Notes under the pieces: model-generated | The model's input: only the letters and a program-made list of their open reading frames with translations | What the model was told of the DNA's origin: nothing | The model's database searches: none | Position numbers and translations under genes: made by a program | Shown here: positions 208-21,780 of the stretch, piece by piece | Position numbering within the stretch: position 1 is the first letter of the stretch | Layout: each line of letters starts with the position of its first letter | IMG/VR virus record: IMGVR_UViG_3300034082_004432 | Span: 1-64,000 of that record | DNA from: a virus | Strand: one strand, 5' to 3' | DNA length: 64,000 nt

Positions 208-1518
208 ATGACCAAAGAAGAATTGCTTAAATTAGTAGAAGAGTATATCAAGAATGAACCAAATAAGAGTTGGAGACCAGGAAAAGATCATGTACATTAT
301 GCTGGGCCTTACTTTGATCATACTGAAATTGTTAGATCAGTATCAACTCTTCTAGATGGTTGGTTAGTTCTTGGTGCTGAAGCCTATAAAGCTGAAAAGA
401 AATTAGCTTCTTTATTTGGCAAAAACCATGCTTTATTGACAAACTCTGGTAGCAGTTCAAATCTTCTTATGATGTCAGCAATTAAGTCAAAAAGATACTT
501 AAATTTGCCTGAAGGAACCAAAGTACTAACTCCTATTGCTGGATTTCCCACTACAATCAATCCCATATTTCAGTGTGGTTTTAAGCCAGTCTTTGTAGAT
601 ATTTCATTAGATGGATTGAACTTGAACTTAGACGATGTTGAAGCCACATTGCAGGCTGACCCAGAGATCAAGATAATTACATTTGCTCATGTACTTGGTA
701 ATCCTCCTGACATGTATAGGCTATTAGATATCATCGACCATTATGGGTTGATTTTGTTAGAAGATTGCTGTGATGCTCTTGGATCGTCATTTGATGGTAA
801 TCCCTTAGGCAGCTTTGGCGCAATGGCTTCTTGCTCTTTTTATCCTGCTCATCACATTACTTGTGGTGAGGGTGGATTAGTTGTTTGTAATGATGAAAAT
901 CTTGAAAAAGTAATTCGTTCTTTTCGTGATTGGGGGCGTGGCTGTTTCTGTATTGGTAAACAAAATATTACAGAATGTGGAGCTTGTAATAAAAGATTTT
1001 CTGAATGGTTGCCAAGTATCCCAGGTGAAGTTTTTGATCACAAGTATGTGTATGAGGAAATTGGTTATAATTTAAAACCAATCGAAGTTCAAGCTAGTAT
1101 GTTGTTGGCTCAAATTGATAAACTTAATGAAATTAAGAAACTTCGCCAAAGAAATCATAAGTTGCTTTTTGATATTTTTAGCAAGTATGAAGAATACTTT
1201 GTTCTTCCAGTAGCACAAAAAAATTCAGATGTTAATTGGTTTGCATTTCCTATTACTATAAAAGATAACGCACCATTTAAGAGAAGTGATTTATGTCAAT
1301 ATTTAGAATCTAAAAAAATTCAAACTAGACCATATTTTGCTGGAAATATTCTTATGCAACCAGCTTATAGTCATTTGGTTGGTGATATGGATCTTGGTGA
1401 TTTTCCTGTAGCTAAAAAGGTAACCACTGATACTTTCTTTTTAGGTACATCTCCAGTAATTACACCGGAACAAATTTATTATATAAGTGATGTTTTGGAT
1501 AGTTTTTTTGACAAATAA
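208..1518 (+). CDS. rfbH: RfbH/DdhC-type NDP-4-keto-6-deoxyglucose 3-dehydratase (E1)
   Basis: This 436-residue fold-type I PLP protein belongs to the DegT/DnrJ/EryC1/StrS superfamily. The PLP-lysine position carries the pair His215-His216 in the motif SFYPAHHITCGEGG, the hallmark of RfbH (E1). RfbH removes the C3 hydroxyl of CDP-4-keto-6-deoxyglucose on the way to 3,6-dideoxyhexoses. A second hallmark is the Cys cluster Cys246, Cys248, Cys257 and Cys260, matching the [2Fe-2S]-binding insertion of that family. Length fits E1 (about 437). E1 normally works with a ferredoxin-reductase-type E3 (DdhD), which is not in this window. The gene is monocistronic, starts at a leaderless promoter and faces the leftward sugar operon. 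Family assignment is firm; the exact nucleotide sugar is inferred. Confidence 0.9.
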   Translation: MTKEELLKLVEEYIKNEPNKSWRPGKDHVHYAGPYFDHTEIVRSVSTLLDGWLVLGAEAYKAEKKLASLFGKNHALLTNSGSSSNLLMMSAIKSKRYLNLPEGTKVLTPIAGFPTTINPIFQCGFKPVFVDISLDGLNLNLDDVEATLQADPEIKIITFAHVLGNPPDMYRLLDIIDHYGLILLEDCCDALGSSFDGNPLGSFGAMASCSFYPAHHITCGEGGLVVCNDENLEKVIRSFRDWGRGCFCIGKQNITECGACNKRFSEWLPSIPGEVFDHKYVYEEIGYNLKPIEVQASMLLAQIDKLNEIKKLRQRNHKLLFDIFSKYEEYFVLPVAQKNSDVNWFAFPITIKDNAPFKRSDLCQYLESKKIQTRPYFAGNILMQPAYSHLVGDMDLGDFPVAKKVTTDTFFLGTSPVITPEQIYYISDVLDSFFDK

Positions 1519-1545
1519 AAATAAAATCAATTAGAACTGAATTTA

Positions 1546-1591
1546 AAGGCCAATAAATAGAGATCTTCATTGACCTCTATTTATTGGCCTT
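1546..1591. terminator. Long bidirectional hairpin between convergent genes
   Basis: A perfect 17-bp inverted repeat (1546-1562 with 1575-1591, core AAGGCCAATAAATAGAG) has a 12-base loop. It lies between the rightward 208 gene and the end of the leftward operon, and its right half includes the last codons and stop of the 1567 gene. The flanks are T- and A-rich but have no clean T run, so bidirectional termination or 3'-end protection is inferred. Confidence 0.75.
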
Positions 1592-2370
1592 AATAGCTCA
1601 AATATTTCTTGTTCAGTATCAAGTAGTAATGTATTTTCATCATTTAGATTCCAAAACTTATATCTAAATCCACCCATTAAGCCCGCCAAGACCTTCGTTT
1701 TATGTTTGTTTTCTTCATTTAATGTACAGAAAAAAGGACCACTTCCTTTTCCTAAAATAAGTTTACATTTTCTGGAAATACTAGAAAGTTCTATTAAAGA
1801 TTTTTTGCTACAATCATGTACATTATTTGCAGAAAAATTAATTGGTCCAACAGTATAAAAATTAATTCTTGGAAACATCAAGCCCAATTTATACATATCA
1901 TACTGAAAATTAGTTTGTCCGCTAACTGGTTGACTATTTTCTACATAAACTGCATTTGCTTTTACATTTACATCAACTATAGGTAACTCAATATACCCAA
2001 ATTCTGAATTATCAAGAAATAAATTTATATTATTATTTGCGCATTGTTGATTGAATGTTTTGATTTGATCCTGCCAAATGTGCTTTAAATTATAAAGACC
2101 ACCCCAAAGATGAATTAGAGTATCTTCTGGTTTAATGAATGGTTTAATTTTCCTCAAAAAATAATCCGGTCTTGTTCTCATTACGAGGTTTCTGTAATTA
2201 CCGTCGGCTTCAATAATTTGTATAGGCAAATGTCTTACTAAATAAGATTGACTTTTGAAACATGCAAATTTGATATTTACATTAGGAAATTGTTTTATTA
2301 TTGCTTCCATTAAAGGTATAGCAGTCAGAGTGTCGCCATTTGATTGATTTATCCATAATAACAAATTCAT
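1567..2370 (-). CDS. Glycosyltransferase-like protein (GT-B, family 9-like)
   Basis: The product has 267 residues from the ATG at 2370, which overlaps the upstream stop as TAATG; the frame is open 15 codons further upstream, but coupling favours 2370. The N-terminus (MNLLLWINQSNGDTLTAIPL) resembles the opening of heptosyltransferase-like GT9 proteins, where a short strand is followed by a glycine-rich 'GD' turn and a PL.E.I helix. The C-terminal GKGSGPFFCTLNEENK segment sits where the GT-B nucleotide-sugar site is expected. No diagnostic catalytic residue can be named. It is the last gene of the leftward sugar operon and probably transfers an activated sugar. Weak but consistent assignment. 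Confidence 0.45.
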   Translation of the reverse strand: MNLLLWINQSNGDTLTAIPLMEAIIKQFPNVNIKFACFKSQSYLVRHLPIQIIEADGNYRNLVMRTRPDYFLRKIKPFIKPEDTLIHLWGGLYNLKHIWQDQIKTFNQQCANNNINLFLDNSEFGYIELPIVDVNVKANAVYVENSQPVSGQTNFQYDMYKLGLMFPRINFYTVGPINFSANNVHDCSKKSLIELSSISRKCKLILGKGSGPFFCTLNEENKHKTKVLAGLMGGFRYKFWNLNDENTLLLDTEQEIFELLRPINRGQ

Positions 2371-2660
2371 TATATTTCTATTTTCCCTTTCAAAATATCC
2401 CATAACATAATCCAATCACTGATCTTTGCCTTTAAAGGATCCTTGAAGGCTGCTGGTTGATTCTTTTCGAAAAAATAATGTCCTGACCATGCAAAAGGAT
2501 ATACTACAAAAGGAGTCAATAAAAGAAACCAGTAATATCCGAAATTAAGACATCCTGCAATCCAAAGTAATGTCATAATTTGACCCAACACATGCAATCT
2601 TCTACAAATTTTATTTTGATGCAAAGTCAAGTACATTGCATAATATTCTTTCATATTCAT
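2370..2660 (-). CDS. DUF962/Mpo1-like small membrane protein
   Basis: This 96-residue protein has the signature of the DUF962 (Mpo1/YGL010w) family: a Tyr-rich N-terminus, LHQNKICRRLHVLG near residues 13-26, two hydrophobic segments (about 27-40 and 42-58) and the second His motif GHYFFEKNQPAAF. Yeast Mpo1 is an Fe(II)-dependent dioxygenase acting on 2-hydroxy fatty acids; the bacterial members are mostly uncharacterised. The His residues of both motifs are present. It overlaps the PhyH gene upstream by ATGA and the glycosyltransferase downstream by TAATG, so it is an integral operon member. A role in lipid or lipid-carrier modification is inference. Confidence 0.8.
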   Translation of the reverse strand: MNMKEYYAMYLTLHQNKICRRLHVLGQIMTLLWIAGCLNFGYYWFLLLTPFVVYPFAWSGHYFFEKNQPAAFKDPLKAKISDWIMLWDILKGKIEI

Positions 2661-3529
2661 TTGATAAATAACCTCAATAAATGCCTATTAGTATATGAAT
2701 CTTCAATTTTACTAAAGAATACATCAGAATCTTGAGCATGTACGTAGCTTTCATCTCTATAATAATTATTATTTTTAAATAGACCAAATCTAATAAACAT
2801 TAGCATTCTTTTACCTTCCTTTAAAGGTGCTCCATGATGCCAAGCAAATGTATCTGCTAAAACTGCAGTTCCTGCTTTTCCTGTTATAACAACTTTTTCA
2901 GAAAGATCATCTGAACCATTTTGTGTTCTTGGATAAAAAATATGAGGTCCATTGTTTTCATCAATATCAGTCAAGAAAACAAAAAAAGCTAAAAACTTAT
3001 AATCGTCCCCGTCTCTGTGTATTTTTTGAGTGTGAAAAACTTCACCTGTGAATTTACTCCACCACATACTTAGCATATGTACAGAGGGCAAGCAACCTAT
3101 ATATGATTGCGCCAATGAAACTAACACAGGGTCAGTCATAATTTTGATAATTAACTCGTTTTTAAGTAATACATCTGTATTATAAGCTAAAATATTCCAA
3201 TCTATATCGTCAGAAAAAATTTTAGTTTCTTTATTGTAAGCTCTATTAGGAACATGGAAATTATATCCAGCTTTATCTTTAGTGTATTCTAAAATACTAT
3301 TTACTTGCTCTTGGCTCAAAAAATTTTCAAAAATGACATATCCTTGATCTTTAAGAAGTGCTTCATGTTCTGGGTTATGTTTTGATTCAATCTTCGGAAC
3401 ATGTTCATTAATAATGTCTTTTATTTTTGTATGAAATTCATTTCTTTTGTCAATGTTTTTATAACAATCTATGTCAGAGATATCATGAAGATTTAATCTT
3501 TCACGAATAATTGTATCTATATCTATCAT
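2657..3529 (-). CDS. Phytanoyl-CoA dioxygenase (PhyH)-family Fe(II)/2-oxoglutarate oxygenase
   Basis: The product has 290 residues from the ATG at 3529, which overlaps the upstream TGA as ATGA; an in-frame GTG at 3538 is an alternative start. The jelly-roll 2-oxoglutarate oxygenase facial triad is visible: His171 and Asp173 in KIHRDGDD, and the distal His of FAWHHGAP (231/232). Arg241 (GKRMLMF) is the probable 2-oxoglutarate anchor. PhyH proteins in polysaccharide and natural-product clusters usually hydroxylate or oxidise small molecules. Here the substrate may be a sugar, lipid or cyclitol intermediate. A second, divergent PhyH is encoded at 8414-9160. Confidence 0.8.
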   Translation of the reverse strand: MIDIDTIIRERLNLHDISDIDCYKNIDKRNEFHTKIKDIINEHVPKIESKHNPEHEALLKDQGYVIFENFLSQEQVNSILEYTKDKAGYNFHVPNRAYNKETKIFSDDIDWNILAYNTDVLLKNELIIKIMTDPVLVSLAQSYIGCLPSVHMLSMWWSKFTGEVFHTQKIHRDGDDYKFLAFFVFLTDIDENNGPHIFYPRTQNGSDDLSEKVVITGKAGTAVLADTFAWHHGAPLKEGKRMLMFIRFGLFKNNNYYRDESYVHAQDSDVFFSKIEDSYTNRHLLRLFIK

Positions 3530-4296
3530 ATAGTACACACACCTTTCTTTTGCACAACTTTAGTAGCACATTCTTGAGCAAAAACAATTGAATTAAAAAT
3601 ATCATTAGATCTTGCAAACTCTACAGCTAATCCTGAAATAAAAGTATCTCCAGCGCCAGATAAGTCTTTAATATTAACTTTTTCAACTGGAAATATATTT
3701 CCATCAAATTCACAACCTTTATCAGACTTTGTTATTATAAGTTTTTTATTAATATTTAACTTTTCTATAGTATGTAATGTTCTTTCATATTCAGTTTCAT
3801 TTATTTTAATATATGAAACATTCTTGCACCATTCATCTAAAATTTTTTTAGTGTCTAGAAAAACATTTTTATTATTTCTTCCAATGAAAGAAATATCATC
3901 CTCTTCAAGAAAACCTTTACAATAATCACTTATAATTATTGCATCGTATGCTACATCTAAATAATGATTATTTTTTATTTTACTAATTACTTCTCTACTG
4001 ATTCTTGTTGATTTGTCGTTTGTATCAATTCTTAGAAGAAGACTATTTGTCCGATAATCAACATATCTTGTTTTGTAAATTTCTTCTTCTTGACAGATTA
4101 GTGTAGCATTTGCTCCTATTGCAACAATATTGCGATGCACATTTAAAGCCATTCCACCACTACTTTGAGAATGGCTTGGATTAAAAACGGGTACTGGGCC
4201 TTCTGGAGCCAATCTATAAACATTTCCATAAGTGAAAATATCAGTGCAAGAATCTCCAATAACTAATATATTTATATTTTTAAATTGACTTTTCAT
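3526..4296 (-). CDS. PfkB-family sugar kinase, heptose-7-phosphate kinase (HldE N-domain)-like
   Basis: This 256-residue ribokinase-fold protein carries the N-terminal substrate segment RLAPEGPVPVF, very close to the 'RISPEAPVPV' motif of RfaE/HldE heptose kinases. It also has a GGMALNVHRN glycine motif (residues 47-56) and the catalytic DLSGAGDTF motif with Asp217 as base. HldE kinase phosphorylates D-glycero-D-manno-heptose 7-phosphate at C1. The protein is shorter than the usual kinase domain (about 320) and lacks the nucleotidyltransferase half of HldE. The compact middle region suggests loss of part of the lid. It lies six bases after the ColD-like gene and overlaps the PhyH gene. Confidence 0.8.
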   Translation of the reverse strand: MKSQFKNINILVIGDSCTDIFTYGNVYRLAPEGPVPVFNPSHSQSSGGMALNVHRNIVAIGANATLICQEEEIYKTRYVDYRTNSLLLRIDTNDKSTRISREVISKIKNNHYLDVAYDAIIISDYCKGFLEEDDISFIGRNNKNVFLDTKKILDEWCKNVSYIKINETEYERTLHTIEKLNINKKLIITKSDKGCEFDGNIFPVEKVNIKDLSGAGDTFISGLAVEFARSNDIFNSIVFAQECATKVVQKKGVCTI

Positions 4297-4301
4297 AGAA
4301 A

Positions 4302-5465
4302 TTAACTATTCAAAACCTCTAGTAATTTGATAATTTTTTCTTTTTCAAGACCAGGATAGTTTCCAACATACCAAGAGAAATTATGAATGTGTTCAATATT
4401 AGGATAATTTGTAAAATCGTTATAAATAGCCTTAAAAAATGGCTGTCTCATTTGATTTCCACCACCAGACAATCCTCTTCTAAATTCAATTCCATTTTCA
4501 GATAGTTTATTTTCCAGAGCATTTCGTTTTTCAAAATTAGGCTCTTTAAGTATTACTATAAAAGCGTAATTGCAATTACCCTCAGTATTAATTGCTATAT
4601 GATATTTTTCAGGATTTAAGTTTGATATGAATAAGTCAAAATTTTCTCTTCTTTCATTATTTTTTTGATCTAACTTAGTCAACTGAGAAATTCCAATTAC
4701 AGCATTAATTTCAGTGCTTCTAAAATTATGAGCCGGTCTTAGAAAAATAAAATCTGGATTAAGGTCAGGATTATCTTGAGCAATAGAAATTTTCATTGTT
4801 TCACTTGTCATTTCTCTAGTCATTCCATGCGACCTAAGAGCACGACAAACTTGATAAAATTCCCAATTATTTGTAGAGATCATACCGCCTTCAATAGTTG
4901 ACATATGGTGAGCAAAATAAAAACTAAAATTACTTGCAAATCCAAAATTTCCAACTTTGCAATCTTGAAAAGTTGTACCATGAGATTCACAAACATCTTC
5001 TATTAAAAGAATGTTGTTCTCTTCACATATCCTTAAAAGATCATTGGTAAGACCATTGATTCCTAGAACGTGAGTAAGAAATATGGCTTTTGTTTCTGGG
5101 GTGATAGCAGCTATTAATTTCTCTATATCAAAGGAAAGATTTGTAAAATTTACATCAACAAATACTAGTTTATGTCCAGCAAAAAGTACTGAAGAAATAT
5201 CTGAAATCCAGGTAAGTGGTGGAAGAATAATTTCCCCTTCACCAATTAAATGAGCTATAGCTAGCATTGTCAATTCATTTGCTGATGCTCCAGAATTGAC
5301 AAATAAATTATACTTTGTACCTAGCCATTTTCCCCAAGCAGACTCAAATTCAGCAACTTTCGGTCCATTTGTAAGCTTGGGAATTTGATCTTGAGATAAA
5401 AAATCAATAACTGAATTAATATCTTCTTTGTCAATATTATTGTTCATTAATGGTAAATAAAACAT
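4302..5465 (-). CDS. ColD-like PLP sugar 3-dehydratase (DegT/DnrJ family)
   Basis: This 387-residue protein is a second DegT/DnrJ/EryC1/StrS-fold enzyme. As in ColD (GDP-4-keto-6-deoxymannose 3-dehydratase, about 388 residues), His replaces the PLP lysine: SFYFAHHMSTIEGGM, His186-His187. The N-terminal SGASANELTM phosphate loop and the HVLG and EDVCESHG motifs are intact. It lacks the Cys cluster of the RfbH paralogue at 208, so it should use the ColD-type, glutamate-regenerated mechanism. The predicted product is a 4-keto-3,6-dideoxy sugar. A true aminotransferase is unlikely without the lysine. Confidence 0.82.
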   Translation of the reverse strand: MFYLPLMNNNIDKEDINSVIDFLSQDQIPKLTNGPKVAEFESAWGKWLGTKYNLFVNSGASANELTMLAIAHLIGEGEIILPPLTWISDISSVLFAGHKLVFVDVNFTNLSFDIEKLIAAITPETKAIFLTHVLGINGLTNDLLRICEENNILLIEDVCESHGTTFQDCKVGNFGFASNFSFYFAHHMSTIEGGMISTNNWEFYQVCRALRSHGMTREMTSETMKISIAQDNPDLNPDFIFLRPAHNFRSTEINAVIGISQLTKLDQKNNERRENFDLFISNLNPEKYHIAINTEGNCNYAFIVILKEPNFEKRNALENKLSENGIEFRRGLSGGGNQMRQPFFKAIYNDFTNYPNIEHIHNFSWYVGNYPGLEKEKIIKLLEVLNS

Positions 5466-5480
5466 TTTACACCCTAATAA

Positions 5481-5486
5481 ATTATA
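5481..5486 (-). promoter_or_regulatory. Possible internal -10 (GGTATAAT)
   Basis: On the minus strand the sequence AGGGTATAAT precedes the ATG at 5465 by 15 bases, with an AGGGTGT ribosome-binding site between. It overlaps the stop codon of the E1-beta gene. It may be an internal operon promoter with a short leader; this is only a consensus match. Confidence 0.35.
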
Positions 5487-6402
5487 CCCTAGTTTCGTTT
5501 TTAATATTCAATAAAAAATCAACGATACTTTTAGCAGTTGGAGGTAGAACATCAACTCTGTTATAGAAGCCTGCTGTTTTATCTTCCAGGCCCAAGCATC
5601 TAACAATTTTACTAGAAGATACTGATAATTGATTAGCAATATGTGATTGGCAACCGCTTTCGTAATCATCATCTAATACTAAGCCTCCAAATTTTGAATT
5701 ACTTAGACTCTTTATAGCTTTGTCGGATACTTTAAGTGGTTTCAACCACATCAAATTACATATGTTAATCTTGATACTATATTCTTTACATAATTGAACT
5801 AGTTTGTCCATTTCAAATCTGGTTATTGAAATTGGGAAAATTGTAAAATCTGGAGTCTCGTTTTCAAAAACATCACATAAATTAGATGTATTATCATAGC
5901 TTTTTCTATGTTCAGATATATAGTATGGCTCATCATCGTTCATAAAATGATCATAACATTCTAAATATTCTGATGGAGACATGGGACTTGCAATTTTAAT
6001 TCCGGGCATTCTATAAACCAAGGAATGATGAGATGAACCAGCAACAGGCCCAATTCCGCCTTCCATAGCAATAGATCTCACAAAAACTGGACAAGGCCTT
6101 TTCCATATTGATTTAGATTTTGCGGCATAATTAACAATTGACACGCAGTTATACCACTGAAAACCTTGATATCTAACTACATAAATAGGTCTATCTCCAG
6201 CTAAAGCTGCACCAACAACAATTGCACCACCAGCAACATCTGCCATAGAAAGTTCAACCATGCCATCATGTTCATAAAGCTCTGGTAAAGTTCCACCAAC
6301 CCAGCCTACAGCAGTTAAGCATTGACCATATGCTTTGCCTTTTTTGCTAACTAAATGGTCTTTTACTATTGATTTTATAGTGTCTCTAAGCGTGATTGCC
6401 AT
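5482..6402 (-). CDS. ThDP-dependent dehydrogenase E1 beta-like subunit (transketolase C-terminal type)
   Basis: This 306-residue protein has the transketolase pyrimidine-binding and C-terminal domains in the order of PDH/acetoin dehydrogenase E1 beta. Visible features are VELSMADVAGGAIVVGAALA near the start, a central 'RSIAMEGGIGPVAGSSHH' loop and a C-terminal domain with a VLDDDYESG segment. It pairs with the E1-alpha gene directly upstream, which it overlaps by 28 bases, so the two are co-translated. It probably forms the heterotetramer that decarboxylates a 2-oxo acid. No lipoyl E2 or E3 is encoded nearby, so the acyl/aldehyde group may be transferred directly to a sugar. Start chosen by the GAGG site before the ATG. 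Confidence 0.75.
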   Translation of the reverse strand: MAITLRDTIKSIVKDHLVSKKGKAYGQCLTAVGWVGGTLPELYEHDGMVELSMADVAGGAIVVGAALAGDRPIYVVRYQGFQWYNCVSIVNYAAKSKSIWKRPCPVFVRSIAMEGGIGPVAGSSHHSLVYRMPGIKIASPMSPSEYLECYDHFMNDDEPYYISEHRKSYDNTSNLCDVFENETPDFTIFPISITRFEMDKLVQLCKEYSIKINICNLMWLKPLKVSDKAIKSLSNSKFGGLVLDDDYESGCQSHIANQLSVSSSKIVRCLGLEDKTAGFYNRVDVLPPTAKSIVDFLLNIKNETRV

Positions 6403-7205
6403 AATGCCTCAACTTTATTTTTGTTGTTTTCATCGATAAATGATGTATCAAACTGCAAGGTTTCTTTTATCCATTCAAGCCTATCAAAATAATCCCCATC
6501 AATTCCAGCACCAGAATGCCAAAATTTTCTGATAGTTCTCACATTCAACAATAAAGGAGTATTAAAAACATTTTTGAGATGATTGAAAATTTCTGTAGGA
6601 CTATCTTCAATGTCATAAGCTTCAACCTTATATGCTTGTGCAAGCTCATGCATATTCCAGTTTCTTCTAATCTTCTTTTCTGTAAGAATTGACAAATTAT
6701 TATCTTCAACAACAAATAGAATTGGTAGATTTTTAGTTGAAGCCCACCCTATGGCTGCACCAACATAATCTTCTTCCGCAGATGCATCTCCCATAAAAAC
6801 AATAGTTGGTTGTTTTGTTTGATAGCAATGTCCAACAGCAATAGGTACCTGAGAACCCATTAAACCATCATGACCAAATATATTTTTTTCTAAAGATTGT
6901 ATAGAAGCAGAACCTCCCATACCAAATGCACAGCCGGAATCTAACCCAAGTAATTCATCAATTAGCTTTTCAGGTGGCGCTTCAAAAGCCAAGTATGTTG
7001 AATGTCCTCTATGTTGAATAAAAATATTTGGCTTAATATTTTTATCTTCTAAATAAGTTGAAATTGAACAAGGAGTACTTTCTTGACCAGCTGATAAATA
7101 CACTGGGATTTTGATAGTTTTATCTTGCACTTTTTTATAAACATATTGTTCAAAATGCCTGCAAAAAGAAATTTTTTCAAAAACTTTCTCTAAATAGTTA
7201 TTCAT
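6375..7205 (-). CDS. ThDP-dependent dehydrogenase E1 alpha-like subunit
   Basis: This 276-residue protein follows the PDH E1-alpha plan: QHRGHSTY (about residues 64-71), GMGGSASIQS (96-105), GLMGSQVPIAVG and the ThDP/Mg motif running from GDA at 139-141 to NN at 169-170 (the 'GDG...NN' motif with Ala in third place). It is shorter than typical E1 alpha, mostly at the C-terminus. It overlaps the E1-beta gene. In surface-polysaccharide loci such split E1/transketolase-like pairs are thought to supply or add two- or three-carbon units. The substrate is unknown. Confidence 0.75.
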   Translation of the reverse strand: MNNYLEKVFEKISFCRHFEQYVYKKVQDKTIKIPVYLSAGQESTPCSISTYLEDKNIKPNIFIQHRGHSTYLAFEAPPEKLIDELLGLDSGCAFGMGGSASIQSLEKNIFGHDGLMGSQVPIAVGHCYQTKQPTIVFMGDASAEEDYVGAAIGWASTKNLPILFVVEDNNLSILTEKKIRRNWNMHELAQAYKVEAYDIEDSPTEIFNHLKNVFNTPLLLNVRTIRKFWHSGAGIDGDYFDRLEWIKETLQFDTSFIDENNKNKVEALWQSRLETL

Positions 7206-7206
7206 A

Positions 7207-8410: not shown

Positions 8411-8413
8411 CTT

Positions 8414-11642: not shown

Positions 11643-11643
11643 G

Positions 11644-12663: not shown

Positions 12664-12671
12664 AGTTGCTC

Positions 12672-14011: not shown

Positions 14012-14017
14012 GAGAAC

Positions 14018-14023: not shown

Positions 14024-14036
14024 CCAACAATAAATG

Positions 14037-14042
14037 TATAAT
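14037..14042 (+). promoter_or_regulatory. -10 element of a leaderless promoter for the rightward operon
   Basis: TATAAT followed by TTTTTT and the ATG at 14049, again exactly six bases. It forms a back-to-back pair with the leftward promoter, so only 37 bases separate two operons of 16 and 8 genes. An in-frame ATG at 14034 is upstream of this element and is not favoured as the start. Confidence 0.7.
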
Positions 14043-14048
14043 TTTTTT

Positions 14049-15029
14049 ATGAAAAAAACTATTATTTTTTGTAATTCTCATGGGTATGGTGACATTTTAC
14101 ACTCAAGACAAGGTGTTAGATGGGTAGTTAATAAACTAGGTGATAATTTTAATTATTTTTATTTACATACTAAGGACAAAGATACTTGTTTTATTCATGA
14201 AAAAGTTACTGTAATTGCATTACCTCATTTTATGTATGGTTGTACTGCATTGAAATTAAAAAATAATCTTAAGTCTGAATTCTTTGATGATGCTCTTTGG
14301 ATAGATGTTTGGGCAGCAAGTTATGAAAAGATGAGAGAGATTGAAACTGGTGGGTACAAGCTTCCTGACGAAAATGGAAATTATCATTCTGGGTGTAAAG
14401 AAATTCAAGATTCAACTATTTGGCAATCAAAACTTTATCAAGAAAAAATCAACAATATAAATAGTTTTTTGATTGAGAATTTCTCTACAAAGCAGTTAGA
14501 GGTTCCAGATCATAAAGAATTTGTATGTAAATGGAATTCCAATCCAAGATACAAATTTTTTGCAGATAAATTAATAAATGATACAAGTCATTACGATATG
14601 AGAGTCATGATCTGCAATGGTAATACAACCTCTGGACAAAGAAGAAATTATATTTACGAAGATATTTTGTCTGACTACATAAAAGATAATCCAAATATTT
14701 GCTTCCTCTTAACTTCAAAAATTAATGAAATAAAAACAAACAATGTCTATTATATTGATGATTATTTTCCAATTCCAAACTTGGATGAAATTGAATATTT
14801 ACATAAATTCTGCGATGTTATAGTTACTAGTCAGTCTGGTCCTGGGTGCTTATCTTTTACAGATGCTGTTGTTTATGATGAAAACAAAACTTTAATTTTA
14901 TTTTGCGTTGATACAATTGATTGGTACTTTGCAGACGGAACTTGTGAATATATTCGCACACAAAATTTTGAAGACTGGAATGTACTAAATCTTATCAAAA
15001 ACACCATAGAGCGTAAATTGAATAAATGA
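14049..15029 (+). CDS. Glycosyltransferase-like protein (GT-B, family 9-like)
   Basis: The product has 326 residues from the ATG at 14049 (chosen because it lies six bases after the TATAAT). The N-terminal FCNSHGYGDILHSRQGV resembles the glycine-rich opening of heptosyltransferase-like proteins. The C-terminal CDVIVTSQSGPGCLSFTDAV segment matches the GT-B site where 'D..I..dSgp.hlA' is typical. It is the first gene of the rightward operon and overlaps the 4,6-dehydratase gene by ATGA. It probably attaches the sugar made by its operon. Confidence 0.5.
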   Translation: MKKTIIFCNSHGYGDILHSRQGVRWVVNKLGDNFNYFYLHTKDKDTCFIHEKVTVIALPHFMYGCTALKLKNNLKSEFFDDALWIDVWAASYEKMREIETGGYKLPDENGNYHSGCKEIQDSTIWQSKLYQEKINNINSFLIENFSTKQLEVPDHKEFVCKWNSNPRYKFFADKLINDTSHYDMRVMICNGNTTSGQRRNYIYEDILSDYIKDNPNICFLLTSKINEIKTNNVYYIDDYFPIPNLDEIEYLHKFCDVIVTSQSGPGCLSFTDAVVYDENKTLILFCVDTIDWYFADGTCEYIRTQNFEDWNVLNLIKNTIERKLNK

Positions 15030-15979
15030 AATTAGCTTATATTACAGGTTGTTTAGGTTTTATTGGCAGACAAGTAACTCAACTTTTGCTTGATAAGGGA
15101 TACTATGTTTATGGCATAGACAATTGTACTTATGCCTCTGACGTTAGTGTTTTAGAAAAATGGATGCTTAATCCAAAATTCAAATTTGAAAATAAAAATA
15201 TTTGCAACATTGATAGATTGGTGGATTGTGACTATTTTATCAATATAGCTGCAGAAACTCATGTAGATAATTCTATAAGAGACAGTAAAGTTTTTGTTGA
15301 TTCAAATATTTATGGTGTTCACAACATTCTTGAATTACTTAAGACATACAAAAAAGAAGGATATGTAGTACCAACCCTAATTCACTTCAGCACAGATGAA
15401 GTTTATGGTGATATTGCAGATGGTGAGCATTTTGAAACAGACATCTTGAAGCCTAGTAATCCTTACTCTGCCACAAAAGCTGCTGCAGATCAACTTATTA
15501 TTGCTTGGTCTAGAACATACGACATACCTTTCAATATCATAAGACCTACAAATAATTATGGCGAAGGACAATATGTTGAAAAGTTGATTCCAAAATCTTG
15601 CAAATTTATAGGACTTGAAAGAAAGATACCATTACATAACCAAGGTACTCCAGTAAGAAATTGGCTTCATGCAAAAGACACTGCTCTGGCTGTGTTGAAG
15701 ATTATTGAGGCTGGTAAGCAGAACGAAATTTACAATGTCGCTGGTGGGTTTGAGCAATCAAATGTAGACACAGTAAGAAAAGTTTTGAACGCATACTTTG
15801 GAAAAGAAGTGGATAATTACCAAGACTTTATTAATTTTGGAATTGAAAGACCTGGACAAGATGTCAGATATGCTTTAAATGACGACAAGATTAGAGGTTT
15901 AGGCTGGACTCCTCAGTGTGTTTTTGACGATGAAATCAAAAAGATAGTCGAATATTATAAAACACATTTCATTTGGTAA
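15026..15979 (+). CDS. NDP-glucose 4,6-dehydratase (RmlB-like)
   Basis: This 317-residue extended SDR has the dehydratase signature: GCLGFIGRQ (residues 8-16), the catalytic STDEVYGD with Thr123-Asp124-Glu125, and Tyr147/Lys151 in YSATKAAAD. RPTNNYGEGQ follows. The enzyme oxidises C4 and dehydrates C5-C6 of an NDP-glucose to the 4-keto-6-deoxy form, the substrate class needed by the two PLP 3-dehydratases. It could act on dTDP-, CDP- or GDP-sugars. The start overlaps the upstream stop (ATGA). Confidence 0.9.
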   Translation: MKLAYITGCLGFIGRQVTQLLLDKGYYVYGIDNCTYASDVSVLEKWMLNPKFKFENKNICNIDRLVDCDYFINIAAETHVDNSIRDSKVFVDSNIYGVHNILELLKTYKKEGYVVPTLIHFSTDEVYGDIADGEHFETDILKPSNPYSATKAAADQLIIAWSRTYDIPFNIIRPTNNYGEGQYVEKLIPKSCKFIGLERKIPLHNQGTPVRNWLHAKDTALAVLKIIEAGKQNEIYNVAGGFEQSNVDTVRKVLNAYFGKEVDNYQDFINFGIERPGQDVRYALNDDKIRGLGWTPQCVFDDEIKKIVEYYKTHFIW

Positions 15980-15982
15980 AAT
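15977..15982 (+). promoter_or_regulatory. -10 element of an internal leaderless promoter (TTGG-TAAAAT)
   Basis: The hexamer TAAAAT includes the stop codon of the 4,6-dehydratase gene and lies exactly six bases before the ATG at 15989. The TTGG extension is identical to that of the 14011 promoter. It allows separate expression of the last seven genes of the operon. Confidence 0.65.
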
Positions 15983-15988
15983 ATATTT

Positions 15989-16789
15989 ATGAATAATAGA
16001 GAATTTGAGTGTGTTAGAATTCTGACAGATCTAGTAGAAAACTACGGATTGGTTGGCGTTAAGACAAGTTTTGAAGACGAAGGAGCTGCATTTAATGAAG
16101 TTCTTAGACTTAAAGAAATTTGTAATCAAGCAAAAACAAAAGTAACCTTAAAGATAGGTGGACCAGAAGCTATAAGAGATATCAAAGACTCTATGATCAT
16201 TGGAGTAAAGGGTTTGGTAGCCCCGATGGTTGAGTCTGAATTTGGTTTAACTAAATTTGTTCAAGCTGTTAATAATAATTTACCTTCCGAAGTTGTAAGT
16301 TCGTTGCAGCTTAATGTGAATATTGAGACTATTTCTGCAGTTTTAGCTATTGACAAAATTCTTTCAAACCAAAACGCATCTGCTTTGTATGGAGTTACTG
16401 TCGGAAGAGTAGATTTAGTTTCTTCAATGGGAGCAGATAGAAGTCACGTAAATTCTGAAGAAGTTTACAATATGGCTCATGATGTTTTTGAAAGAACTAA
16501 AAAGCTTGGTGCTAAAGCTTGTATTGGTGGTGCTGTTTCAATTGATTCATTAGACTTTTTAAAGAAATTACACTCTGAAAAACTTCTTGATAAGTTTGAA
16601 ACAAGATATGCAATATTTGATCCTTCAATTACACTAAAGAATTTATCCAGAGCACTATTCAAGGCTCAAATGTTTGAATACGAATGGCTTACAAACAAGA
16701 TGGAATATTATCAATCTCAAGCCAATCAAGATGAATCAAGAGTTAAAATGATTCAAGCTCGTATAAATAAATCAGCTTCTGAATTATGA
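15989..16789 (+). CDS. HpcH/HpaI-type aldolase (citrate lyase beta family)
   Basis: This 266-residue TIM-barrel protein has motifs LKIGGPEAI (about residues 51-59), GVKGLVAPMVES (metal-site Glu) and VGRVDLVSSMG, typical of the HpcH/HpaI aldolase family. These enzymes use Mg2+ and a pyruvate or oxaloacetate enolate in aldol reactions. In a surface-sugar operon the enzyme may add or remove a three-carbon unit. A C-terminal helical extension (about residues 230-266) is not part of the barrel. The start overlaps the next gene's start by ATGA. Confidence 0.75.
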   Translation: MNNREFECVRILTDLVENYGLVGVKTSFEDEGAAFNEVLRLKEICNQAKTKVTLKIGGPEAIRDIKDSMIIGVKGLVAPMVESEFGLTKFVQAVNNNLPSEVVSSLQLNVNIETISAVLAIDKILSNQNASALYGVTVGRVDLVSSMGADRSHVNSEEVYNMAHDVFERTKKLGAKACIGGAVSIDSLDFLKKLHSEKLLDKFETRYAIFDPSITLKNLSRALFKAQMFEYEWLTNKMEYYQSQANQDESRVKMIQARINKSASEL

Positions 16790-17424
16790 GAATACTTATC
16801 ACTGGTGGGTCAAGAGGCATAGGCAGTGATATTTGTGAAATTTTCAAAAAATATGGTCATGAAGTTATTGCTCCAACTCGTGAAGAACTTGATTTATCTC
16901 AACCCTTTTCTTTTATTCCAGACAAAATTGATATTTTAATAAATAACGCTGGTATTAACATAATAGATTCTATATTTGAAGGTGAGAATTATGAAGAAAT
17001 GATGACAGTAAATTATTTCTCACCTTTAAGATTATTTAAACTTTGCTTACCTCATATGAAGAAACAAAATTATGGCAGGGTTGTAAATATTGGAAGTGTA
17101 TGGGTAGATTATGCAAAACCTGGAAGATCCTCATATAGTGCTAGCAAAAATGCCTTACACTCTCTTACAAAAGCTATAACTGCTGAATATGGCACTTATA
17201 ATATTTTGGCAAACACTGTGTCTCCTGGATTTTTTATCACGGATATGACTTTTCAAAATAACACAGAAGAAGATTTGAAAGATTTAAGAAGCAAAATTCC
17301 AGTTGGTAGATTGGGATATACAAATGAAGTTGCAGATTTAGTATATTACTTGAGTGTAAACAATTCATATATATCTGGTCAAAATATAGTTATAGATGGT
17401 GGTTATTCATGTACAGCCAAATAG
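16786..17424 (+). CDS. Short-chain dehydrogenase/reductase (FabG-like)
   Basis: This 212-residue classical SDR has GGSRGIG at residues 6-12, NNAGIN, Tyr117/Lys121 in YSASK, and a C-terminal SGQNIVIDGGYS typical of the FabG family. It probably reduces an aldol or keto product of the operon with NAD(P)H. It overlaps the aldolase gene (ATGA) and runs 16 bases into the cyclase gene. Confidence 0.85.
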   Translation: MRILITGGSRGIGSDICEIFKKYGHEVIAPTREELDLSQPFSFIPDKIDILINNAGINIIDSIFEGENYEEMMTVNYFSPLRLFKLCLPHMKKQNYGRVVNIGSVWVDYAKPGRSSYSASKNALHSLTKAITAEYGTYNILANTVSPGFFITDMTFQNNTEEDLKDLRSKIPVGRLGYTNEVADLVYYLSVNNSYISGQNIVIDGGYSCTAK

Positions 17425-18455
17425 ATGTCAAATCAAAAATCAAAGATTATTCTGTAAATTTTGTAAGCTTGAGCGAAATATATAAACTCATTGGTGAAGA
17501 TTATCATCTTGCAGTAGTTGACAAAAATGTTGCTCACTGTTTTCCTGAATTTGGATTAGGTGATCTCATAGTTATAGACACAAATGAAGACTTAAAATCA
17601 TGGCGTGGTTTAGAAAAAATATTTGATAAATTTGCTGCAAAAAAAGTCAATACGCAAACTAAACTTGTAGTTATTGGTGGTGGAGTTTTACAAGATGCAG
17701 TGGGTTTTTGTGCTTCTGTTTATTGTAGAGGTATTGAATATTATTTAGTTCCAACAACATTGCTTTCTCAAATCGATAGCTGTGTTGGCGGTAAAACTTC
17801 TATCAATTATGGGTCAAGAAAAAATATTCTTGGTACATTTTATCCTCCTTGTGAAATTCTTATTTGTGAAGAATGGCTTGATGGTTTAAGTAAAGAAAAC
17901 TTTTGTAGTGGTTTAGGCGAATTGTTGAAGTTTGATATCTTGAGAAATAAAATTCAAGAATCAAATGTCATTGATTTGATTACTGAAAATAAAAATGTTT
18001 TGTATCACATTCATAAAAGTCTTAATTATAAAATTTCAGTTTTAGAGATTGATGAATTTGATAAAAAAGAGCGTAAATTCCTGAACTTTGGTCATACATT
18101 TGGTCATGCTTTAGAAATTACCTCAAAGTACAAGTTATCGCATGGATATGCAGTGGCAATTGGATGTCTTGTAGCCTTGAGGTTAAGTGAACTATCTTAT
18201 AACTATAATTACAAAGATTATTCTGCAACATTAAATATTGTCAAAAAACTTCTAGAAAATACAGTATCTGTTAATCAAGAATGGTTTGATTATGAGAGCC
18301 TTATGGAATGTGTCAAGTCAGATAAGAAAAATACTGGCTGTGTTAACATGGTGCTAATCAAAGATAATCAACCAGTAATTCAAAAAATTGAAGATTATTC
18401 TATAATAAAAACAGCACTGGAAAATGTTTATGAAACTATCAGATTATGTAATTAA
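17409..18455 (+). CDS. Dehydroquinate synthase-like sugar-phosphate cyclase
   Basis: This 348-residue protein belongs to the sugar-phosphate cyclase superfamily. The nucleotide loop GGGVLQDAVGF starts at residue 90, followed by PTTLLSQIDSCVGGKTSIN. The metal ligands appear as Glu171 (GELLKF), His229 (HTFGHALE) and His245 (SHGYAVAIG); the 16-residue spacing of the two His matches dehydroquinate synthase. Members include AroB, 2-deoxy-scyllo-inosose synthase and epi-valiolone synthases. Lying among sugar genes rather than aromatic genes, it more likely makes a cyclitol than dehydroquinate, but AroB activity cannot be excluded. Confidence 0.82.
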   Translation: MYSQIDVKSKIKDYSVNFVSLSEIYKLIGEDYHLAVVDKNVAHCFPEFGLGDLIVIDTNEDLKSWRGLEKIFDKFAAKKVNTQTKLVVIGGGVLQDAVGFCASVYCRGIEYYLVPTTLLSQIDSCVGGKTSINYGSRKNILGTFYPPCEILICEEWLDGLSKENFCSGLGELLKFDILRNKIQESNVIDLITENKNVLYHIHKSLNYKISVLEIDEFDKKERKFLNFGHTFGHALEITSKYKLSHGYAVAIGCLVALRLSELSYNYNYKDYSATLNIVKKLLENTVSVNQEWFDYESLMECVKSDKKNTGCVNMVLIKDNQPVIQKIEDYSIIKTALENVYETIRLCN

Positions 18456-20154
18456 ATTTCTTCACGATAACTATGATGTAGATACAATCTTTACACTTTC
18501 AGGAGGTGGTTGTATACATTTAGTTGATTCACTTGGAAAATCTGAAGACGTAAATTACATAGCAACTCATCATGAACAAGGAGCATCAATTGCTGCAGAG
18601 GGTTACGCTAGAAAGAAGAATAAACTAGGGGCTTGCTTAGTAACTTCTGGTCCTGGTGGTACAAATGCCCTCACAGGAACTCTATGCAGTTATTTGGATT
18701 CAGTTCCTGTGATAGTCATTAGTGGACAAGTAAACACTCCAATGACTACAAATTACACTAAATTGAGTCTTAGGCAATTAGGTGATCAAGAATTTGATAT
18801 TGTAAAAACTGCAAAGACAATGACAAAATTTGCTGTTCAAGTAAACAATCCAGAAGAAATTCGCTATTATCTAGAAAAAGCGTGTTATTTTGCACTTAAT
18901 AAAAGACCTGGACCTGTGTGGGTTGATATTCCCCTAGATGTACAGTCTGCTCAAATTGAACCATCAAAATTGAAACCTTTTGTGCCAAGTATTATTGAGA
19001 TGACGCAATCTACAGTAGATTATATTTCTATAGTGAACTCTTGGAATAAAGCAAAGAAACCATTACTAATTGTTGGGAATGGTGTAAGAATTTCAGGAGC
19101 TGTTGAAAATTTATTTGAGCTTCTAGATAAGACCAATATACCTGTCATTACTGCAGTTAATGGGAACGATATTGTCAATGAATCTTACCCCTACTATTAT
19201 GGGAGATTTGGTACTCATGCTCAGATATGCGCTAATAAGCTTATTAATGAAGCTGATTTTATAATTTCTATTGGTTCAAGACTTTATGTACGTCAAATAG
19301 GTTACAATTTTGATGATTTTGGCAAAAACGCATACAAAATTGCAGTAGATATTGACTCAAACGAATTAGAAAAACCTACACTTAGACTTGATATGAAAGT
19401 TTGCGAAGATGCAAAAAAATTCATAAATAATTTGAATAAAGTTTTCATCAATAAAGCTTCAGCAGATTGGATATCAGAATGTGAAGCTCTGAGGTCTCCA
19501 AAAGTATTAGCCAAACATCGTGAAAAAACTGATTATGTAAGTAATTACTTTTTGATTGAAAAATTATCAGAAATAACTCCCCCTACTTACGACATAGTAA
19601 CAAGCGATGGATCTGCCAATGTTGTCACTATGCAGGTAGTGAAGCTAAAAGACAACCAGAGACTTATTACAAATACTGGTTGTGCCCCTATGGGTTATGG
19701 CCTTCCTTGTGCTATCGGAGTTGCTTCTACTGGGCAAAAAACATTATGTATTGAAGGTGATGGAAGTTTACATCTTAATATTCATGAACTTCAAACAATG
19801 ATGCACAACAATTTGCCGATTAAAATTTTACTGCTAAATAATGAAGGTTATTTGTCGATCAAAGTAACACAAAAATCATTTTTCAAAGGTCATTATGTAG
19901 CTTCAGAAAAATCAAGTGGAGTTTCTTTTCCAAATTTTCAAAAAATATCTGATGCATATGGAATACCTTATTTTGCTATTAAAAATAATAGTGAAATTGA
20001 AAGTCGATTGACTGAGTTCTTTGAATATGATGGGCCTTGTCTTTGCGAAGTTTTCACAGATCCAAATGAAATTTTTGAACCTAGAGTTGTAGCAAAGATG
20101 GATGAAAATGGAAGATTTATTCCAGGCAGACTATCTGAAGCTCAGTGGAGCTAA
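18430..20154 (+). CDS. Acetolactate synthase-like ThDP enzyme
   Basis: The product has 574 residues from the ATG at 18430 (an alternative ATG lies at 18424). The three-domain ThDP decarboxylase/ligase layout is complete: catalytic Glu49 in THHEQGAS, SGPGGTNALTG, a central FAD/NAD-like domain, and the ThDP-Mg motif beginning GDGS at 443. Related enzymes in polysaccharide loci include YerE, which adds a pyruvate-derived two-carbon unit to a 3,6-dideoxy-4-keto sugar to form yersiniose. The island also encodes the enzymes that would make such a substrate. YerE-like branching is inference; acetolactate synthase-like activity is the alternative. Confidence 0.75.
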   Translation: MKLSDYVIKFLHDNYDVDTIFTLSGGGCIHLVDSLGKSEDVNYIATHHEQGASIAAEGYARKKNKLGACLVTSGPGGTNALTGTLCSYLDSVPVIVISGQVNTPMTTNYTKLSLRQLGDQEFDIVKTAKTMTKFAVQVNNPEEIRYYLEKACYFALNKRPGPVWVDIPLDVQSAQIEPSKLKPFVPSIIEMTQSTVDYISIVNSWNKAKKPLLIVGNGVRISGAVENLFELLDKTNIPVITAVNGNDIVNESYPYYYGRFGTHAQICANKLINEADFIISIGSRLYVRQIGYNFDDFGKNAYKIAVDIDSNELEKPTLRLDMKVCEDAKKFINNLNKVFINKASADWISECEALRSPKVLAKHREKTDYVSNYFLIEKLSEITPPTYDIVTSDGSANVVTMQVVKLKDNQRLITNTGCAPMGYGLPCAIGVASTGQKTLCIEGDGSLHLNIHELQTMMHNNLPIKILLLNNEGYLSIKVTQKSFFKGHYVASEKSSGVSFPNFQKISDAYGIPYFAIKNNSEIESRLTEFFEYDGPCLCEVFTDPNEIFEPRVVAKMDENGRFIPGRLSEAQWS

Positions 20155-20155
20155 T

Positions 20156-20983
20156 ATGAAAAAGTTATTAATTACTGGTAGTAATGGATACATTGCCCGA
20201 AATATAGCCAAGCAATTTTCTGACTATGATTTAACCTTAGCAAATAGATCCAACTTGAATTTAATAGATGCCAAATCTGTAAAAAAATTTTTTGAACATA
20301 GATTTTTTGATGCTGTAATTCACACAGCTACTTCTGGTGGAAGTAGACTCAAAGAAGATACTTCAGATGTTTTTTATGAAAACTGCATAATGCATCAAAA
20401 TATATTAGATAATGCTTGCTCATTTGATAAATATATTTCATTTGGATCAGGAGCAGAATTAGACAGAAGATACGGAATTGATCCTTCTGTTGAATTGAAA
20501 AGTGCTTTTCCAATTGATCCTTATGGGATGAGTAAAAACTTTATTGCCAAGTCTGGAATATTGTATCCAAATTTTCATAATATAAGAATATTTAATGTTT
20601 TCAATGAAGATGAACTTTCTTCTAGAATGATAAAAGCAAGTATTGTTAATTACATAAATAAAAAACCAATTGTAATTCATCAAGATAAATGGATGGATTT
20701 TTTCTATATGGATGATTTATGTGAAGTTATAAAATTTGTTATTGAATCAAATACTTCACAAAAAATTATTAACTGTTCTTACCAAGAAAAATACAAGCTT
20801 AGTACAATTGCGGAAATTATAAATGAATTGTCCGACCATAAAGTTGATATTGTTGTCAATAGCAGCTCTTTTGGATTAAATTATTACGGTGATTATAATT
20901 TGCATTTATTTGATATAGATTTGCTTGGATTACATTTGGGTATAAAAAATACATATAATAAATTAAGGGATGAATTAAATTGA
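20156..20983 (+). CDS. NAD-dependent epimerase/reductase (extended SDR)
   Basis: The product has 275 residues from the ATG at 20156, which follows the previous stop by one base and has a GGAG site at the end of that gene. Features are LITGSNGYIARN at residues 5-16, Tyr123/Lys127 in YGMSK, and a KWMDFFYMDDL strand. It is shorter than the other extended SDRs. It probably reduces the branched or deoxy keto sugar made by the preceding ThDP enzyme, as YerF does for YerE in yersiniose synthesis; this pairing is inference from order. Confidence 0.75.
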   Translation: MKKLLITGSNGYIARNIAKQFSDYDLTLANRSNLNLIDAKSVKKFFEHRFFDAVIHTATSGGSRLKEDTSDVFYENCIMHQNILDNACSFDKYISFGSGAELDRRYGIDPSVELKSAFPIDPYGMSKNFIAKSGILYPNFHNIRIFNVFNEDELSSRMIKASIVNYINKKPIVIHQDKWMDFFYMDDLCEVIKFVIESNTSQKIINCSYQEKYKLSTIAEIINELSDHKVDIVVNSSSFGLNYYGDYNLHLFDIDLLGLHLGIKNTYNKLRDELN

Positions 20984-21780
20984 AAAATTTACTGGTCAAC
21001 TTTTCTGTCGGAGATAAATGCATTGATTCTTTAGAAGGTGATATTTTCTTGAACTCACTTTCAAAATTTAAAACATTTGAAAAGGCAGTATTTGTAAGTA
21101 ATGTCAGTCCTCAGAACATTAAGAAGCTAGAAAGATACTTCGATATCATCATTCCTAATAATGAGAATTTATATACAAGTTATTTAGCTTTGTATAATTG
21201 GCTTTCAGAACATGTTGATGAATATAAATACGTTATGCATTCTGACTTGAGAGATGTAGTTATACAAACAGATCCTTTTCAATTTTTTGAATCTCATCCT
21301 GATATAAATATGTTTTATTCATTGGAAGGCATGAAGATAAAAGAAAATGACTGTAATTTATGGTGGGAACAATCTTTGAGAACAATGCTCAGGTCTCACA
21401 ATGATTCTTATGAAGATGAATGGGTGATTAATGGGGGAATATTTGGAGGCAAAATTGAACATATGATCAATCACTGTTTGATGATGTTTTCAAATACAAA
21501 TAGAAAATCACAATTCTTGGTTATGGATCAACAATTTTTGGGATACTTAAGCCAATATCTCAAGAATAATCCTAAGAATATGTTATGTCATCCTTACAAT
21601 GATACTTTTGCATGTACTGGAGAAGCTATAAAGCGTGATAATGTAGAAGTTTTCTTTGATGGTAAGCAAGTCACCAATAAAGATGGTGTTCCTTACTGCA
21701 TATTTCATCAATGGGATAGAACAGAATTAGCAAATCATTTTCTTGCTAAAGAATCAAACACGTTGAGATTCTCTCTCTAA
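20980..21780 (+). CDS. GT-A-type glycosyltransferase-like protein (TTG start)
   Basis: This 266-residue protein has the pattern HSDLRDVVIQTDPF (Asp89, Asp92), the acidic metal/nucleotide motif of GT-A glycosyltransferases. A later INGGIFGG segment (product/donor loop) and VMDQQFLGYL support it. The start codon is TTG at 20980, overlapping the previous stop as TTGA, with an AAGGGA site nine bases upstream. It is the last gene of the rightward sugar operon. It ends in a 27-base convergent overlap with the tail operon. Confidence 0.68.
   Translation: MKNLLVNFSVGDKCIDSLEGDIFLNSLSKFKTFEKAVFVSNVSPQNIKKLERYFDIIIPNNENLYTSYLALYNWLSEHVDEYKYVMHSDLRDVVIQTDPFQFFESHPDINMFYSLEGMKIKENDCNLWWEQSLRTMLRSHNDSYEDEWVINGGIFGGKIEHMINHCLMMFSNTNRKSQFLVMDQQFLGYLSQYLKNNPKNMLCHPYNDTFACTGEAIKRDNVEVFFDGKQVTNKDGVPYCIFHQWDRTELANHFLAKESNTLRFSL

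Follow-up and report, generated by a model that had tools for sequence, protein, structure and literature searches.

A recurring phage gene module with a predicted role in branched-sugar synthesis

What would a phage build with 25 tightly packed sugar-type genes, and are those genes its own? The question is raised by an island at positions 208–21780 of the window, the 64,000-nucleotide stretch analysed here, which is the first 64 kb of the 121,334-base IMG/VR virus record IMGVR_UViG_3300034082_004432. The island is genuine phage DNA. Its conserved viral module, consisting of the right half (15026–20983) and the 3-dehydratase gene at 208–1518, probably builds a C4-branched 3,6-dideoxy sugar. 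The gene families, the module, the exclusivity of its finishing enzymes and the kinase pattern were computed; every substrate, product and destination is inferred. The genes of the module are as follows.

208..1518, plus strand: g1, RfbH/E1-type pyridoxal phosphate (PLP) 3-dehydratase of the CDP-4-keto-6-deoxyglucose 3-dehydratase family (RfbH NF011936, His for the PLP lysine, Cys motif)
15026..15979, plus strand: g19, RmlB-like nucleoside diphosphate (NDP)-glucose 4,6-dehydratase (TIGR01181, 288.6 bits, below the cut-off of 365)
15989..16789, plus strand: g20, HpcH/HpaI-like pyruvate aldolase, the marker of the module (PF03328, 35 bits against a cut-off of 25)
16786..17424, plus strand: g21, short-chain dehydrogenase/reductase (SDR), paired with g22 (PF00106)
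17409..18455, plus strand: g22, dehydroquinate synthase (DHQS)-like sugar-phosphate lyase/cyclase (PF01761 and PF24621)
18424..20154, plus strand: g23, YerE-like thiamine diphosphate (ThDP) carboligase (TPP N, M and C domains)
20102..20983, plus strand: g24, RmlD/YerF-like reductase, which follows the ThDP gene in the module (PF01370)

A scan of viral contigs with the aldolase g20 returned 58 loci, in which the same partners recur: the g23-type ThDP enzyme in 53, the g24-type reductase and the g19-type RmlB-like protein in 51 each, the g1-type 3-dehydratase in 49, the g21-type SDR in 41 and the g22-type DHQS-like protein in 39. The usual gene order is HpcH-SDR-DHQS-ThDP-reductase or HpcH-HAD-ThDP-reductase, where HAD is a haloacid dehalogenase-type protein. 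The 58 loci include near-copies; viral aldolases are represented in the tree described below by 46 different rows, counting that of the window. Virion genes v1–v5 of the window are common to only 4 of the 58 loci, so the module resides in different phages. What the original prediction took for an unusual set of enzymes is not a loose collection; its core is a defined and recurring pathway module. Among named phages, a DNA-level search with the right half of the island gave no match. For ThDP and DHQS, matches at 21–35% identity in named phages were set aside; they fall mostly in records that read as bacterial housekeeping (ilvB, aroB, acetolactate synthase) or are unannotated, such as that of Campylobacter phage A11a.

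The PLP 3-dehydratases, ThDP enzymes, oxygenases and cyclase-type enzyme named in the original prediction were borne out. g1 scores 441.5 bits with the NCBIfam RfbH model (cut-off 423), carries the Fe-S cysteine motif and has 3bcx/3bb8 as its nearest solved structures. Both g1 and the second DegT-family protein, g6 (4302–5465), have histidine at the position of the PLP lysine of DegT aminotransferases; we take this replacement to mark 3-dehydratases, and both are therefore read as such. In the g1-type alignment (49 rows, window included), lysine was seen only in L025 among the segments displayed, which cover some rows. The AlphaFold model of g20 has a pLDDT of 95.6, and its invariant residues E113 and D142 align with the Glu and Asp of YfaU, which presumably bind metal in HpcH/HpaI aldolases. 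In g23, E51, G445-D446-G447 and N472-N473 stand in alignments at the conserved Glu and the GDG...NN motif. A ThDP profile of 24 viral rows gave 557 bits with 8rph and 409 bits with the next match, acetohydroxyacid synthase. The structure 8rph is JanthE according to the accessible part of PMC12188165, a YerE-like enzyme that branches at a ketone; in the available text of PMC12247030, JanthE accepts short and longer 2-oxo acids. By sequence, g23 is closer to the YerE-like JanthE than to acetolactate synthase.

The position beside the aldolase is the site of a switch. After L026, L041 and L061, which are cut near the aldolase, were left out of the count, each of the remaining 55 viral loci held exactly one of the SDR-DHQS pair (39) or a 131-amino-acid HAD protein (16), never both and never neither. 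In L067 and L068, aldolase (HpcH) and HAD are fused into one protein. Bacterial aldolase loci from the ThDP scan (n=16) had HAD in 9, DHQS in 2 and neither in 5; those from profile searches (n=52) had HAD in 19, DHQS in 19 and neither in 14, and the two never occurred together in either set or in any of the 73 classified bacterial ThDP loci. The 52 loci, of about 3.8 kb each, were fetched for the best matches only, and three of them repeat loci of the ThDP scan; the aldolase-positive genomes in these searches numbered 9/296, 8/398, 71/386 and 5/398. A quick tree of 108 aldolases shows 17 changes of the finishing state among the labelled rows, an approximate figure given the long branches and open forks; the exclusivity is therefore not one inherited accident. 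The tree left out identical rows, three loci repeating L122, L135 and L112, and L202/L209, where the aldolase open reading frame (ORF) had been missed. The 131-amino-acid HAD was identified from weak profile matches (NCBIfam BT0820 family, 22 bits; PDB 1xpj, E 0.003) together with invariant DxDG/DD motifs, and bacterial HADs were called by motif pattern. In the phylum that includes the Gastranaerophilales genome G011 (L209–L238), the aldolase is frequent, with 71 of 386 genomes positive against 5–9 positives in four other phylum samples of 296–398 genomes each; in the phylum of the Actinomycetota metagenome-assembled genome L118, it was found in 5 of 396.

The supply position beside the ThDP gene is also interchangeable, being taken by the aldolase, by NeuB or by a protein resembling HMGL/4-hydroxy-2-oxovalerate aldolase. 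Classification covered 73 of 80 bacterial ThDP loci, the other 7 having no ThDP ORF that was recognised; L253–L257 lie outside the classification. The supply gene was HMGL-like in 17, an aldolase in 16 and NeuB-like in 11, one locus having both aldolase and NeuB-like genes, and 30 had none; in L184, the HMGL-like protein resembles 4-hydroxy-2-oxovalerate aldolase models, with scores under their cut-offs. A FGGY-like kinase, labelled from the bacterial homologue L151 (PF00370) as the viral protein has no Pfam match, accompanies 16 of the 19 listed viral NeuB+DHQS loci (13 of 16 contigs) as against 1 of the 58 aldolase loci, and that one, L057, also has NeuB. This pattern fits a DHQS-like step that requires phosphate, which the NeuB route must add. 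The aldolase route could draw a phosphorylated aldehyde from central metabolism, and NeuB would bring no phosphate.

In the bacterial clusters L117, L132 and L135, RfbF- and RfbG-like genes lie beside the module, and RfbH-like genes also occur in such clusters (by eye). In the 58 viral loci and the window's record, RfbF found no match and RfbG only distant ones (best rows 24–34% identity), and a RmlB-like protein more than 45% identical to g19 is present in 48 of the 58. The phages would therefore draw on dTDP-glucose. An apparent absence of the aldolase from bacteria in a first scan with a narrow four-sequence alignment proved to be a failure of sensitivity, as the ThDP scan and profile searches later found bacterial aldolases. 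Two plasmid matches were rejected, that of Ilyobacter for its catabolic setting and that of Novosphingobium for having no other module genes by profile.

From these families, the following pathway can be proposed. RmlB-like g19 and RfbH-type g1 would convert host NDP-glucose, probably dTDP-glucose, to an NDP-3,6-dideoxy-4-ketohexose. HpcH-like g20 would join pyruvate to an aldose phosphate (probably erythrose 4-phosphate), and the product would be a seven-carbon 2-oxo-3-deoxy acid phosphate like 3-deoxy-arabino-heptulosonate 7-phosphate. DHQS-like g22 and SDR g21 would strip the phosphate by oxidation, elimination and reduction, a task that the HAD phosphatase may perform in other phages. YerE-like g23 would then decarboxylate the 2-oxo acid on ThDP, which would leave a six-carbon acyl unit with CH2 beside the carbonyl, and would attach this unit at the C4 ketone; g24 would reduce the new ketone. 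With phosphate eliminated and ketone reduced, the unit would end in CHOH-CH3 and give the branch CHOH-CH2-CHOH-CHOH-CHOH-CH3; in the HAD version it would end in CH2OH. If g22 stops before ring closure, the result would be the 1,3,4,5-tetrahydroxyhexyl branch of caryophyllose. As described in the accessible part of PMC5706390, the caryophyllose side chain is a 1,3,4,5-tetrahydroxyhexyl group on a 3,6-dideoxyhexose, which, judged by structure, the predicted branch would match. The available portions of the Mycobacterium marinum lipooligosaccharide papers give this structure and yielded no aldolase or DHQS gene. Phage glycosyltransferases could then put the sugar on a host surface glycan or on the virion. 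The family matches of the island include no flippase, polymerase or lipid-carrier transferase; glycosylation in the cytosol, of virion proteins or of host precursors, is what remains.

A wider reading can be offered tentatively. A modular branched-sugar pathway may exist in phages as a lineage of their own, its finishing enzyme having been exchanged on many occasions between a HAD acting by hydrolysis and DHQS-type elimination followed by reduction. Such exchange would let phages and bacteria alter how a surface sugar is branched; with DHQS, the product would be a caryophyllose-like 12-carbon sugar, and the origin of its deoxy-ended six-carbon branch would be explained. The literature on phage branched sugars and YerE-like enzymes, as far as it was covered, contained no phage report of such a pathway.

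Several results weigh against the branched-sugar pathway. g19 is below the TIGR01181 cut-off given above; the CDP-glucose model gives it 58 bits. g20 found no match in the NCBIfam search, and its fold does not separate from pyruvate-kinase barrels, with near-tied Z scores of 18–20 (SbnG 19.9, pyruvate kinase 18.7, HpaI 18.5). g23 falls below the cut-offs of all 25 NCBIfam models listed. The best NCBIfam model for g22, TIGR04425 (AroB-related phospholyase), gives 298.9 bits against a cut-off of 400, and the AroB model TIGR01357 gives 242.6 against 305. Conserved Lys, Arg, His and Asn positions of g22 align with DHQS; a true DHQS uses up the 2-oxo group, and the full reaction ahead of g23 would therefore block the carboligation, and the DHQS enol intermediate closes its ring readily. 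An E3 reductase partner for g1, sought with one bacterial query (the E3-like protein of L122), was found neither in the 58 loci nor in the window's record; the role may fall to a host enzyme. A different HAD protein of about 100 amino acids is found together with DHQS in NeuB-type viral loci; four aldolase loci also have it (L020, L041, L042 and L057, of which L041 is cut before the DHQS position). Among the 73 bacterial ThDP loci, 25 lack both supply and phosphate-removal genes in their neighbourhood, and 22 have a supply enzyme alone.

g22 also figures in a carbocyclic alternative. Here the ThDP enzyme would act first and load the sugar with a phosphorylated chain; ring closure on that branch by the DHQS-like enzyme and reduction by the SDR would then yield a sugar bearing a carbocycle, of which we take bradyrhizose and caryose to be examples. 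The conserved residues and DHQS family membership of g22 agree with this, as do the name of TIGR04425 ('cyclizing') and a Bradyrhizobium canariense locus (L147, 7004–11806) in which SDR, DHQS-like and YerE-like genes lie together, adjoining a RfbG-like gene. However, the retained residues, which presumably include the carboxylate-binding positions of DHQS, point to a free acid substrate, and we know of no enzyme of the DHQS kind that acts on the branch of an NDP-sugar. The portions of the bradyrhizose literature covered offered no pathway for comparison. Ring closure on the branch is considered unlikely, and the cyclitol-type or DNA-modifying role suggested in the original prediction is less apt for the core than YerE-type branched-sugar synthesis. 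It is a little less likely still that two separate products are made, with g23 adding a yersiniose-type two-carbon branch from pyruvate while aldolase, DHQS-like enzyme and SDR make an unrelated cyclic acid as a decoration. The resemblance of g22 to DHQS would suit this, and so would the preference of YerE for pyruvate given in the available text of PMC12247030. Against it, aldolase and ThDP genes are near-invariant neighbours in the 58 viral loci, the HAD alternative occurs without DHQS, and aldolase, NeuB and HMGL interchange beside the ThDP gene. The C4-branched sugar remains the reading that we favour, and the 58-locus co-occurrence, the ThDP profile nearest JanthE, the exclusivity, the kinase pattern and the supply interchange are counted in its support.

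The phage origin of the island was established from its junctions. It had been placed between a virion gene and the tail operon, and the tail genes are indeed found on the right; position 1 is where the record begins, so the contig itself cannot show a virion gene on the left, and the head genes were seen in sister contigs. The right junction is present in four sisters (L007/L012, L008/L013, L014 and L015), and g25, the last island gene, is followed by v1–v3 in identical order in L007, L008, L014 and L015. The 3′ ends of g25 and v1 overlap in the window, L007 and L008, which is hardly expected of a chimeric join. On the left, sister G003 (L246) has a 93% identical g1 homologue downstream of terminase (phrog_2, 91 bits), portal (phrog_16240, 112 bits), a head-protease-bearing protein and further genes, and in sister G007 (L247) the island adjoins the head module in the same way. 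GC content shows no break at 21780. That bacterial DNA was misjoined to the contig, the refuting case named in the original prediction, or recently acquired from a host, is very improbable: the module does have bacterial homologues, but the sisters share identical junctions, 42 of the 46 viral aldolase rows form one group apart from bacteria (97 SH-aLRT), and only 2 changes between virus and bacteria occur on the tree. The left half is more variable among sisters, the g6 neighbours in L008 being shorter proteins, of which the alpha-like one is 30% identical over 176 residues.

Since sister record G007 has 358,269 bases with complementary ends, the window's record is probably a fragment of a jumbo phage. 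The ends of G007 carry two parts of a v18 homologue, corresponding to v18 residues 1–689 and 746–1324, as expected of a circular genome cut inside that gene. Among the best 15 of 259 matches, no named phage exceeds about 27% identity to the sister terminase, and nine virion-side window proteins had no PHROG match. Elsewhere, L004 14597–19266 (record 98597–103266) encodes topoisomerase II subunits, namely an 839-amino-acid protein matching phrog_551 and a 716-amino-acid protein that by eye resembles gyrase B. L004/L005 also encode PhoH (phrog_2765) and, judged by eye, proteins like DnaK, DnaJ and ClpX. Giant virion proteins in L003 and L005 (463–6288) carry many copies of a short repeat of the 'VLVKNQT..ENGIY' type (by eye), and part of one, of 1941 amino acids, matches head-decoration and tail-fibre PHROGs. 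The left island part of sister L008 has a protein resembling B12-binding radical SAM proteins (2544–4064, by eye).

The island contains 27 ORFs of at least 80 amino acids; two are antisense ORFs nested in other genes (9092–9361 and 12206–12484), and the remaining 25, tightly packed, agree with the contiguous 25-gene island originally described. Rightward g1 at the contig start is followed by a leftward block of 16 genes (1567–14011) and a rightward block of eight (14034–21780), giving 16 genes on the minus and 9 on the plus strand. Pfam supports two DegT proteins, an E1 alpha/beta-type ThDP pair, a three-domain ThDP enzyme, two PhyH proteins, Mpo1-like, PfkB, DJ-1/PfpI and cupin proteins, five epimerase/dehydratases, two SDRs, HpcH/HpaI and DHQ synthase. 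It backs one glycosyltransferase; three further putative ones (1567–2415, 14034–15029 and 20980–21780) have no Pfam match. The remaining genes are listed below.

1567..2415, minus strand: g2, putative glycosyltransferase (no NCBIfam match either)
2370..2660, minus strand: g3, Mpo1-like (PF06127)
2657..3538, minus strand: g4, PhyH-type dioxygenase (PF05721)
3526..4296, minus strand: g5, PfkB/RfaE-domain-I-like kinase (PF00294; TIGR02198, 121.8 bits, below cut-off)
4302..5465, minus strand: g6, second PLP 3-dehydratase, ColD-like (PF01041; His for the PLP lysine)
5482..6402, minus strand: g7, ThDP E1-beta-like subunit (PF02779)
6375..7205, minus strand: g8, ThDP E1-alpha-like subunit (PF00676)
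7207..7929, minus strand: g9, cupin/mannose-6-phosphate isomerase C-terminal-like (PF01050)
7868..8410, minus strand: g10, DJ-1/PfpI (PF01965)
8414..9160, minus strand: g11, PhyH-type dioxygenase (PF05721)
9136..10101, minus strand: g12, NAD epimerase/dehydratase (PF01370)
10101..10682, minus strand: g13, SDR (PF00106)
10683..11702, minus strand: g14, NAD epimerase/dehydratase (PF01370)
11644..12663, minus strand: g15, glycosyltransferase (PF13524)
12672..13628, minus strand: g16, NAD epimerase/dehydratase (PF01370)
13610..14011, minus strand: g17, small protein (nothing above Pfam cut-offs)
14034..15029, plus strand: g18, possible glycosyltransferase (no NCBIfam or PHROG match either)
20980..21780, plus strand: g25, putative glycosyltransferase, kept in sister phages

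g25 is 91% identical to its counterparts in L007 and L008 and 57% in L014; its structure prediction gave a poor model with no usable fold. Between the convergent genes g1 and g2, an imperfect inverted repeat (1546–1591, 83% match to its own reverse strand) is probably a two-way terminator. In the left half, g5–g8 (kinase, ColD-like dehydratase, E1 beta and E1 alpha) resemble a second branching unit, in which g6 and g7/g8 might add a two-carbon branch; its function is the least certain part of the island.

An odd enzyme list thus becomes a testable pathway carried by many uncultured phages. It proposes a concrete, checkable way in which caryophyllose and other long-branched sugars could be made, as well as the hydroxylated 2-oxo acids that YerE-like enzymes use as donors. 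Should the sugar be placed on virions or on the host envelope, the phage would have in it a means of altering recognition. Gene clusters of the cyanophage P-SSM2 lipopolysaccharide type, with which the island was originally compared, reportedly also place sugar genes in a large phage genome. The comparison breaks down at the diagnostic enzymes: for the aldolase, DHQS-like, ThDP and E1-alpha proteins, tblastn against 50,697 phage records matched no record named for a cyanophage. The two-subunit E1-like ThDP enzyme g7/g8 beside the 3-dehydratase g6 is like the alphaKADH2-type branching systems of aldgamycin and kibdelomycin, as described in the available text of PMC12247030, but stands in a phage context and has a predicted function. 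In the same partial source, ErwE (erwiniose) prefers 4-hydroxy-2-oxo acids and MMAR_2332, linked to caryophyllose, behaves alike. The island shares with them a YerE-like enzyme for branching; in contrast to that text, where the source of the hydroxylated donors does not appear, it proposes a gene set for making them. The closest parallel in overall plan is the yersiniose A pathway of Yersinia O-antigen (RfbF-G-H, YerE and YerF), which likewise combines a 4,6-dehydratase, a PLP 3-dehydratase, a YerE-like ThDP enzyme and a reductase acting on a 3,6-dideoxy-4-ketosugar. The island differs in being phage-borne, in having a RmlB-like protein in place of RfbF/RfbG, and in the addition of the aldolase with either SDR-DHQS or HAD.

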